NCBI GenBank assembly: GCA_031289775.1
Contig: JAITOY010000033.1
Span: 1-64,000 of the forward strand
Direction: 5' to 3'
DNA: 64,000 bases
From: Synergistaceae bacterium
Lineage (GTDB): Bacteria; Synergistota; Synergistia; Synergistales; Synergistaceae
The notes under the pieces were generated by a model. It saw only the letters and a list, made by a program, of their open reading frames with translations. It did not search any database and was not told the DNA's origin. How positions within the stretch are numbered: position 1 is the stretch's first letter; each line of letters begins with the position of its first letter. Positions 33,889 through 37,518 of this stretch are shown here, one piece after another. The position numbers and the translations under genes were made by a program.

Positions 33889-33908
33889 CGGGCGACGCGG
33901 GGAGAGTG

Positions 33909-35441
33909 ATGGCCTTGAAGCTCGAAGTTCTTTTTCGTGAGATAAGCGGTGAGAAAAGATTGGCAGGCGTCCATTCACCGGATGTCGAGATCGGCGAAAT
34001 CGTCTACGACAGCAGGAACGTCTCGTCCTGCCGTGTCGGAGTTTTGTTCGCCTGCGCGCGCGGCAGCCGAGTCGACGGCCATGATTTCGCGGCGAGCGCT
34101 ATTGACTCGGGCGCCGTCGCCCTTCTCGCCGAGCGCGAATTGTCCTTCGATGACGCGGGGTCGAAAGGAGTTCCGCAGATAATAGTTCCGGACGTAAGAG
34201 CCGCCATGGGCGAAGCCGCGTCCGTACTTTACGGCAGGCCGTCCGACAAACTGACTATGATCGGCCTGACCGGCACAAACGGGAAAACGACGACAGCTTA
34301 CATCACGAGGTCGATAATACGCGCCTCCGGGCGAGTTTGCGGGATGCTGGGGACGGTCGTATATGACGACTGTTCGAGCGAGGAGGCGGCCTCGCGCACG
34401 ACGCCCGAGGGGCCCGATATCCAGAGGTCACTGTGCTCGATGGTGCGAAACGGGGCGACATGCTGCGTGATGGAGGCGTCGTCTCACGGTTTGGCGCAGG
34501 GAAGGCTGGAAGGCTGTTCGTTCGACAGGGTTGCCTTTGGCAACCTGACGTTTGAGCACCTCGAGTACCATGGCGACATGGAGAACTATTTTGCTGCCAA
34601 ACGCCTGCTTTTTTCTAATCACGTCAAGCGAGACTGGGCTGCGGTCATAAATGCGGATGACGATTACGGCGTCCGTCTTCTGGCCGAATACAGCGGCAGC
34701 GCGTTTGGGTTCTCCATTCGCCGTGAGCCGGAACGAGGGCTGTACTGCTGCGTTGGCGTGAGGACGTCGATAGAGGGAACGGAGCTTGACGTGACGTACC
34801 CGGACGGGGAGAGTCAGAGCATCCGGTCGCCGCTGATAGGGTTTCACAACGCGCAGAACGTGATGGAGGCGATAGCTCTCGCCGACTCGCTCTCTATCCC
34901 GAGGGATGTAATTCATAAAGGGATATTGGAATGCCGGCGGGTTCCGGGACGCCTCGAGCGTTACGCGCTCGCCAGAGGAGCGGCAGCTTTCGTCGACTAC
35001 GCTCACAGCCCTGACGGCCTCGAAAAAGTCCTTTCAACACTCTCGGCGTTAAAGACAGGACGATTGTGGGTGCTTTGGGGCGCCGGCGGGGACAGAACAG
35101 CCGCGAAACGCCCGCTTGCGGGCGCGGTCATGGCAAGGCTCGCGGACAGGGTGATAATAACAACCGACAACCCGAGGAGCGAACGTCCGGCCGATATAGC
35201 GAGTCAGGTGGAGTCTGGCGTCATCTCCTCAGGAGAGGGCATCCCTTGCGAGATCATCCTCGACAGGGGCGAGGCTATCCGCTCCGCCCTCGATCGCGCC
35301 GAGTCCGGCGACGTTGTCCTCGTGGCCGGGAAAGGGCCGGAGAACTATATTGAATACGCGGATAGCCGTGTTCCGTTCAGTGACACTGGAATAGTGTTGG
35401 AGTGGATCGAGGAGCGCGGCCTCTGGGGTGACCAAACATGA
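33909..35441 (+). CDS. murE: UDP-MurNAc-tripeptide synthetase MurE
   Basis: A 510-residue Mur ligase that adds the third amino acid of the peptidoglycan stem. The N-terminal UDP-binding domain has VYDSRNV (about 32-38), the ATPase domain has TGTNGKTT (121-128) and MEASSHGL, and the C-terminal domain carries DNPRSE (420-425). A DNPR motif is typical of enzymes that add meso-diaminopimelate, so an A1gamma DAP wall is predicted. ATG 33909 follows GGGGAG better than GTG 33906. It overlaps the next gene by 4 bases. Confidence 0.95.
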   Translation: MALKLEVLFREISGEKRLAGVHSPDVEIGEIVYDSRNVSSCRVGVLFACARGSRVDGHDFAASAIDSGAVALLAERELSFDDAGSKGVPQIIVPDVRAAMGEAASVLYGRPSDKLTMIGLTGTNGKTTTAYITRSIIRASGRVCGMLGTVVYDDCSSEEAASRTTPEGPDIQRSLCSMVRNGATCCVMEASSHGLAQGRLEGCSFDRVAFGNLTFEHLEYHGDMENYFAAKRLLFSNHVKRDWAAVINADDDYGVRLLAEYSGSAFGFSIRREPERGLYCCVGVRTSIEGTELDVTYPDGESQSIRSPLIGFHNAQNVMEAIALADSLSIPRDVIHKGILECRRVPGRLERYALARGAAAFVDYAHSPDGLEKVLSTLSALKTGRLWVLWGAGGDRTAAKRPLAGAVMARLADRVIITTDNPRSERPADIASQVESGVISSGEGIPCEIILDRGEAIRSALDRAESGDVVLVAGKGPENYIEYADSRVPFSDTGIVLEWIEERGLWGDQT

Positions 35442-36553
35442 GCGAACTTAACGAACTTCTTGCCCTGGCGGGCGAGCGAATATCGGAGCTGTCCGCGACG
35501 GTTGTCGGCATAACGGGAAGCGTTGGGAAAAGCGCTGTCAGGCAGTTCATTTTCGAGGCTATGAGCGGTTCATTCAGAGTTCACTCTCTGGCCGTGGGTA
35601 TGGATTCGCTGAACGAATCCTGCAGGGCGATAGCCGATACGCCGGACGGCGCCAATGTCATCCTGCTCGAGTTCCGGACGCGTCAGAAGGGCGAAATAGG
35701 CGAACTCGCGAGGATGTTCCATGTCTCCTGCGGGGTTATAACCGACGACGGGATGTTGGCCGGCGGCGCTGAAATCGCCGAGTCGCCAGCTCTCGCGCGC
35801 CTGTTTTTCAATAAGGATCACGAGGCCCTCGCTCGCGCGGTAGCGGCCATCGAGGACGACGGCGGCAGGATAAAAAAATTCGGCGCGGGTTTTGCAGACG
35901 CTGACGTGAAAATCTCAGATGTAAGGCAGAGCGTGTCGAAAAGCGGGGCGCCAGAGCTATCGGTACTCCTTGCTCACAAGGGTGAAAAATATGGATGTTG
36001 CGCCAAAATCCTCGGCAGGCAGAACGCTAGGAACATAGCTCTCGCGTTTTCGGTCGCTGTCGAGCTTGGCGCGAATCCTGGCGATATTTGCTCGCGTATG
36101 GCCTCTGTTCAGCTTCCGAACGGAAGCGGCAGAATTCACAGGACGGCTGGAGGCGGTTTTTTGATTGACGAGTCCTGCGGCGCGTCCCCGGACTCGGTGT
36201 CGTATTCGCTGAAAAATATAATCGAACTCGAAACCCCGAACGAACTTCCAAAGTTTGCGATACTTGGCGGGATGCGCGAGCTGGGCCTCAATTCGCTCTA
36301 CTGGCACGAGGTCATTATGAGCCGCGCCAGCCTTCTTGACGGAGTGTACCTCATCGGAAGCGAGTGGGATGGTGTAGTGACCGAACAGTCATCTCTCAGG
36401 GGCAGATGGAGGGACGCGGACGAATTCATGGGCGATTTCGACCCGAGGTCGCTGGGCGGTTCCGTGACCCTGCTCAAGGGCTCGAAGCACTATGGCATGG
36501 GCAGGATATTGAACCTGCTCTACGAGCCGCTGGAGGCGAGAGAATGCCTCTGA
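35438..36553 (+). CDS. murF: Divergent, N-terminally short MurF-like ligase
   Basis: A 371-residue protein in the place of murF, which adds D-Ala-D-Ala. The core order is recognisable: P-loop GITGSVGKS (24-32), EFRTRQKGEIGEL (78-90), AILGGMRELG (274-283) with H290, and LLKGSKHYGM near the end. Yet the usual N-terminal UDP-sugar domain of about 80-100 residues is missing and several conserved motifs differ: GSVGKS for GSNGKT, GRQN for GRHN (193-196) and DESCGASPDS for DDSYNANPDS (244-253). Whether it is active is open. No other murF lies in the window. Confidence 0.75.
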   Translation: MSELNELLALAGERISELSATVVGITGSVGKSAVRQFIFEAMSGSFRVHSLAVGMDSLNESCRAIADTPDGANVILLEFRTRQKGEIGELARMFHVSCGVITDDGMLAGGAEIAESPALARLFFNKDHEALARAVAAIEDDGGRIKKFGAGFADADVKISDVRQSVSKSGAPELSVLLAHKGEKYGCCAKILGRQNARNIALAFSVAVELGANPGDICSRMASVQLPNGSGRIHRTAGGGFLIDESCGASPDSVSYSLKNIIELETPNELPKFAILGGMRELGLNSLYWHEVIMSRASLLDGVYLIGSEWDGVVTEQSSLRGRWRDADEFMGDFDPRSLGGSVTLLKGSKHYGMGRILNLLYEPLEARECL

Positions 36554-37518
36554 AAATACTCTGTCTCTCGCTCGCCTTTTTCGCGGCCGCTTTGTACTGC
36601 CAGCGCCTCTGGATAACCTGGATGCGCAGGTACGGTCTCGGCGAGGCCATAAAGGAATACGGGCCGCAGTCGCACATAAAAAAGAGGGGCACGCCGAGCA
36701 TGGGCGGGGTTGTCGCGCTTGTGCTCGTCCCAATAATCGTTCTCTCCGCGAAAGCCGCCGGTTTGAGCGGGCTGAAGGAGATGGCCTGTATATGGATATA
36801 CCCGGTTCTCGGAGCTTTCGTCGGCCTTTTGGACGATCTACTGAAGAAGCTGAGAAAATCGAGCGAAGGTCTGAAAAGCCTGCAAAAGCTTGCGTTCCAG
36901 ATTGCGGTGACGGCGCCATGGGCGTGGTGGGCGGCTCGCGGCGGCGTTTACCTGACGCCGGAGTTTGCTCTAGCTCCGTTTCATGGCGCGGCGTCGCTTC
37001 TTTTCATCGGGGTAGGGCTGCTGAACGCCGTGAACGTTACTGACGGTCTCGACGGGCTCGCCGGAAGCATAGTGGCTATTTCGCTCTCCGCGCTGCTCAT
37101 CTCGTCGTCTTTTGTGCCGGCGCGCCTGTCGGCGGCGGCCGGATTAGCTATCGTGTCCGCATTCCTGTGGCACAACTCGAATCCGGCGGAGCTTTTTATG
37201 GGCGACGTCGGCGCGCACCTCTGGGCAGGGCTGCTTCTGGCGCTGTGTCTGGAGTCGCGTTTCCTGCTTCTCGTATTCCCCGTTGGTTTTCTCTTCGGCG
37301 TGGAGATCGCGACTGTGGCGATACAGATAACCGCTATAAAGAAGTTTGGCAGGAAGGTGTTTCTCATGAGTCCGCTTCACCATCACTTCGAGCTCTGCGG
37401 CTGGAAGGAGCCGAAGATAGTATCGAGATTTTGCCTGGCGCACCTTGTTGGTATGGCCGCGCTGTTTATATTTGTTTTGGCGCTCTGTGGGGGGGGTGTC
37501 TCGAATGTACGCCCATAA
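36544..37518 (+). CDS. mraY: Phospho-MurNAc-pentapeptide transferase MraY
   Basis: A 324-residue polytopic membrane enzyme that makes lipid I from UDP-MurNAc-pentapeptide and undecaprenyl phosphate. About ten helices are predicted. Conserved cytoplasmic motifs are present: HIKKRGTPSMGG (about 44-55), the catalytic aspartates in FVGLLDDLLKK (about 92-102), NVTDGLDGLA (about 164-173), MGDVGAH (about 219-225) and MSPLHHHFEL. ATG 36544 overlaps the end of the murF-like gene by 10 bases; the longer frame from 36364 is a shadow inside it. Confidence 0.96.
   Translation: MPLKILCLSLAFFAAALYCQRLWITWMRRYGLGEAIKEYGPQSHIKKRGTPSMGGVVALVLVPIIVLSAKAAGLSGLKEMACIWIYPVLGAFVGLLDDLLKKLRKSSEGLKSLQKLAFQIAVTAPWAWWAARGGVYLTPEFALAPFHGAASLLFIGVGLLNAVNVTDGLDGLAGSIVAISLSALLISSSFVPARLSAAAGLAIVSAFLWHNSNPAELFMGDVGAHLWAGLLLALCLESRFLLLVFPVGFLFGVEIATVAIQITAIKKFGRKVFLMSPLHHHFELCGWKEPKIVSRFCLAHLVGMAALFIFVLALCGGGVSNVRP

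Follow-up and report, generated by a model that had tools for sequence, protein, structure and literature searches.

In the dcw cluster of a Synergistaceae bacterium (GenBank assembly GCA_031289775.1), a short gene takes the place of murF, the gene for a wall-building step that counts as essential, almost universal, and a drug target. This short gene probably encodes a MurF-derived pseudoenzyme that persisted after the D-Ala-D-Ala branch of cell wall synthesis had apparently passed to a separate gene module. The DNA analyzed here (the window) comprises 64,000 nucleotides of the forward strand of contig JAITOY010000033.1 (positions 1 to 64,000). The features of the short gene, its neighbors, and the module are listed in Table 1.

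Table 1. Features of the short murF-derived gene, its flanking genes, and the module outside the window
Feature	Coordinates	Strand	Evidence or remark
Short murF-derived gene (putative pseudo-MurF), 371 aa	35438..36553	+	ORF; TIGR01143 match below cut-off; murF slot of dcw cluster
ATP-binding middle domain remnant, residues 1-225, without N-terminal UDP-sugar domain	35438..36112	+	PF08245, 28.6 bits; AF2/Foldseek
P-loop GSVGKS, residues 27-32, with Lys31	35516..35533	+	Alignments
Site where MurF catalytic His (HLEG) and carbamylated Lys (AK) are missing	35744..35767	+	Alignment to E. coli MurF and 9 full-length relatives
GRQNARN, residues 193-199	36014..36034	+	Conserved in short clade; near family standard GRQ(H/N)A(R/K)N
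C-terminal domain, residues 226-371, best conserved part; contains RASLLDGVYLIGSEWDGVVTEQSSLRGRW (296-324)	36113..36550	+	
CGASP, residues 247-251, in place of YNANP	36176..36190	+	Y and N lost in 5/5 short proteins
murE, complete	33906..35441	+	TIGR01085, 451 bits; stop overlaps start of short murF
mraY	36544..37518	+	Start overlaps end of short murF
Three-gene module: alpha/beta hydrolase, membrane-anchored MurF, long D-Ala-D-Ala ligase (Ddl)	G000:C74:9383-13056		Outside window

As the original prediction had claimed, an open reading frame for a 371-residue MurF-like protein lies between murE and mraY, and the N-terminal domain is absent from its product. The P-loop starts at residue 24 (GSVGKS from residue 27), the N-domain PF01225 gave no match in the Pfam profile search, and the match to the murF profile TIGR01143 (118 bits) covers only profile positions 58-418, without reaching the cut-off of 288.6. 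The only Pfam match was the weak one to Mur_ligase_M (Table 1). The start codon of the gene shares an ATGA with the murE stop codon, and the 3′ end of the gene extends over the mraY ATG, so there is no space for an N-terminal domain; no additional gene is present between murE and mraY at this locus. The profile matches of the adjacent MurE, MurD, and MurC were normal. The short protein matched the MurF of T. maritima at 1.4e-19 (phmmer), and the predicted segments GEIGEL, MRELG, and LLKGS were indeed found, at residues 85, 279, and 345, along with GRQN at residue 193 and CGASP at residue 247. An AF2 model based on the alignment of five sequences (pLDDT 67, pTM 0.63) had the MurF crystal structures 3zl8 and 4cvk as its best Foldseek matches (E 1e-19 to 1e-18). 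Because the model matches MurF structures best, the short protein is predicted to retain the MurF fold in domains 2 and 3.

The invariant residues of Mur ligases are the P-loop Lys and a Glu, His, Arg, and Asp, and the Lys of the 'AK' motif is carbamylated in these enzymes. An alignment compared five short MurFs (the window protein and four relatives described below) with nine full-length relatives and the MurF of E. coli. All five short proteins have lost the His of HLEG, the carbamyl-Lys of 'AK', and the Arg of PxGR (R230S in the window protein). These decisive losses were absent from the motif list of the original prediction. Of the changes it did list, the replacement of YNANP by CGASP held, with Y and N gone in all five short MurFs. 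The other two proved to be ordinary for the lineage: GRQ(H/N) and GSVGKT are standard in its full-length MurFs, with only T to S differing in the window P-loop, so neither GRQN nor GSVGK is a sign of altered catalysis. The P-loop Lys is present in the window copy but lost in all four relatives, where the motif reads GSFG-G, GGFGRA, GGYGSS, and GGYG-R. Since the window protein keeps Lys31, Glu78, and Asp244, it may still bind ATP. Among the 105 columns that are invariant in eleven full-length family MurFs, 40 were kept and 22 lost in all five short MurFs. In residues 1-110, 8 such columns were kept and 13 lost, and in residues 206-371, 22 of 38 were kept and 6 lost. The remnant of the middle domain (residues 1-225) is the least conserved part within the short clade.

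The same short gene occupies the identical slot in four more Synergistaceae MAGs (G109, G175, G176, and G177; records JAISYM010000137, JAIROA010000084, JAISFV010000156, and JAIRNC010000001), which appear from their isolate names to be of termite-gut origin. Compared with full-length MurFs from sister genera, the window protein shows about 40-48% identity. The five short MurFs form one clade with support 100/100, nested among full-length MurFs, and the five genomes also form one clade in a tree of concatenated MurE/MraY/MurD/FtsW/MurC. Given a single clade in both trees, one truncation event would suffice to explain all five proteins. The original prediction had reckoned with an assembly error, to be recognized by orthologs with an intact N-terminal domain. 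The four other MAGs share the truncation with the same junction, and the five form one clade, which rules out an assembly error or a frameshift as the cause of the short gene. The stem of the short MurF clade is 4 times longer than in the concatenated five-gene tree (0.70 versus 0.17), and its tips are 1.4 to 3.6 times longer.

Selection on the short gene was estimated with pairwise codon models and a likelihood ratio (LR) against omega = 1. Synonymous changes are near saturation in the more distant pairs, so the closest pair, G176-G177, is the most reliable; here, omega was 0.23 (LR 90), compared to 0.11 for MurE and 0.09 for MurD. For all six short murF pairs, omega was 0.10-0.30 (LR 62-166), and the C-terminal part was under the strongest constraint (omega 0.06-0.21). 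When drift without selection was simulated to 0.3 substitutions per site, 0 of 2000 frames stayed open. The short MurF branch is accelerated yet constrained, and these sequence comparisons fit a protein whose constraint is relaxed but still real. The short MurF combines the traits of a pseudoenzyme: homology to an enzyme, loss of catalytic residues, and retention by selection. This pattern of selection makes a new or regulatory role for the window copy, as the original prediction had offered, plausible.

On contig C74, the genome also encodes a second MurF, in which the P-loop and the HLE, AK, Arg, and YN motifs are all intact; its gene lies between those for an alpha/beta hydrolase and a D-Ala-D-Ala ligase. 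This second MurF matched TIGR01143 at positions 71-367 with 223 bits, and hydrophobic segments (membrane helices) stand in place of its N-terminal domain. The expectation of a real murF elsewhere in the genome was thus borne out in part: a catalytically equipped MurF exists, but not a full-length one. As this membrane MurF also lacks the N-terminal domain, loss of the domain alone is no proof of inactivity. A whole-genome search of the window genome found no second canonical full-length murF, with the C74 membrane form as the best match. The genome is 82.6% complete, so an additional murF could lie in the missing part; a canonical murF is, however, absent from all five short-murF genomes (80-93% complete), which makes a missed copy unlikely. 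The module to which the membrane MurF belongs (Table 1) was found across the Synergistota families f1, f2, and f11, in place of the native MurF and, where examined, of the native Ddl. The module Ddl is 27-30% identical to the native Ddl, and it was the only Ddl above the cut-off in the module genomes examined.

Relatives of the membrane MurF at E below 1e-100 were present in 23 of the 188 genomes of the phylum. Counts from match tables of 121 genomes gave 10 with the module only, 105 with canonical MurF only (one of them cut by a contig end), none with both, and 6 with neither (Fisher 6e-11, a p-value that overstates the evidence because the genomes are related). The mraY locus was read in 16 module genomes, and in each of them mraY comes immediately after murE. 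The exception to the exclusion is G179, which carries a full-length canonical MurF as well as the membrane MurF-Ddl module (G179:C192, G179:C154), with no native-type Ddl above the cut-off. The contamination of this bin is 6%, and G179 may be either a true intermediate or a contaminated bin. In G109, neither the module MurF nor a real Ddl was detected, which probably reflects an assembly gap. Together, the second equipped MurF, the near mutual exclusion, and the murE-mraY junction in the 16 module genomes argue that the module took over the D-Ala-D-Ala step. With such a takeover, the window gene most probably encodes a pseudoenzyme that has been retained.

The short gene evolves faster than its neighbors, overlaps murE and mraY at its start and stop, and is losing residues that are conserved in working MurF. 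All this would also be expected of a decaying relic, a functionless protein whose frame is held only by translation running from murE to mraY in the overlapping operon. Selection acts at the amino-acid level, however, as the low omega of the closest pair and of the C-terminal part indicates, and all five short MurFs still share 40 of the 105 residues that are invariant in the family. Moreover, 16 other genomes do without the gene, with murE adjoining mraY. A relic is hence an unlikely explanation. Even less probable is a new catalytic or ligand-binding role, in which the short protein would act on or sense a lipid-linked or D-Ala-D-Ala-containing ligand. Such a role would be in line with the conservation being highest in the C-terminal, amino-acid-binding domain, and it has a precedent in MurT, which is also without the N-terminal domain. 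The P-loop, however, is destroyed in four of the five short MurFs, so they have no ATP chemistry in common, and the model (pLDDT 67) is too poor for judging a pocket.

The original prediction had also considered a minimal MurF, that is, that the short protein still makes UDP-MurNAc-pentapeptide without the N-terminal domain. We regard this as very improbable. The window copy does retain the P-loop Lys, Glu78, Asp244, and the GRQN loop, and a two-domain Mur ligase can work, as MurT does (PMC6113224). Against this, none of the five short proteins retains the active-site His, carbamyl-Lys, or Arg, four of them are also without the P-loop Lys, and a catalytically equipped MurF is encoded elsewhere in the genome.

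For the retained pseudoenzyme, we propose that an ancestor of these termite-gut Synergistaceae handed the D-Ala-D-Ala branch over to the three-gene membrane module, with the membrane MurF of the C74 type presumably performing the ligation. The resident murF, released from catalysis, would then have lost the UDP-sugar domain and the active-site residues, and its middle-domain remnant and C-terminal domain would have been maintained as a protein under selection. Most module lineages would have deleted murF; the short-murF lineage would have kept a trimmed, catalytically stripped copy. Most plausibly, this copy would have remained in use as a docking, scaffold, or regulatory subunit of the membrane-proximal Mur-MraY-MurG complex. 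In several species, MurF is a direct binding partner of MreB, and Mur enzymes interact with MraY and MurG (PMC4929429), so a retained docking or regulatory function would fit the selection pattern. A bolder version, in which D-Ala-D-Ala addition moved from the cytosol to the membrane and the old MurF became a noncatalytic organizer or regulator of the wall-precursor complex, is suggested by analogy and is rather doubtful. MurT acts on lipid II and is without the UDP-binding domain, and such a domain has been argued to clash with the membrane (PMC6113224). Speculatively, the membrane MurF may likewise add D-Ala-D-Ala to a lipid-linked tripeptide.

Among known systems, the closest to the short protein is MurF itself (TIGR01143), from which it descends directly and with which it shares both the murE-mraY interval as its place in the cluster and the fold in domains 2 and 3. 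It differs from MurF in lacking the N-terminal domain, the active-site His, Lys, and Arg, and the YN motif, in scoring below the cut-off, and in coexisting with another MurF. With MurT of the MurT/GatD lipid II amidotransferase, it shares the absence of the UDP-binding N-terminal domain (PMC6113224). MurT, however, has a working ATP site, which is lost in four of the five short proteins, and these are orthologs of MurF, not of MurT. PAP11, a MurE homolog in the plastid RNA polymerase, is a further case of a Mur ligase homolog as a component of a complex, and its role there is exerted partly through its C-terminal domain (PMC12681378). In contrast to the short MurF, PAP11 is derived from MurE, is not truncated in this way, and works in plastid transcription. 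The membrane MurF, in turn, resembles murF_I, the van-cluster MurF of Desulfitobacterium (vanI), in being a second MurF outside the dcw cluster that is linked to D-Ala-D-X dipeptide genes (PMC4229326). Whereas murF_I accompanies a resistance cluster, the membrane MurF has helices, adjoins a Ddl, and replaces the native MurF.

These genomes offer a natural experiment in which the catalytic function of MurF is separated from any noncatalytic one, the chemistry being apparently performed by the membrane-anchored MurF and the old protein remaining under selection. The long-discussed scaffold role of Mur ligases thereby becomes directly testable, and the whole D-Ala-D-Ala branch (Ddl and MurF) appears to be exchangeable as a module. 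A literature search that covered few subscription journals returned no description of a MurF or Mur-ligase pseudoenzyme, of MurF displacement, or of a swap of the D-Ala-D-Ala branch.

Some further observations concern the module and its genomes. The module Ddl retains the omega-loop Tyr, which we take to be the D-Ala-D-Lac specificity residue of Ddl, and D-Ala-D-Lac specificity is not favored for this reason. In two of the short-murF genomes (G176:C68, G177:C165), the module Ddl is located on a different contig from the membrane MurF, and the module seems to be split there. In G154 (C28:15536-16465), the MurF match lies within a 954-aa open frame, a possible fusion, and in G003:C201, MurF matches occur in two adjacent frames of 239 and 499 aa. 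Of note, in those f1 and f2 genomes that were searched, MraY did not reach the 192-bit cut-off of TIGR00445 (most scores were 134-175) with either MurF type, unlike MraY of f11.
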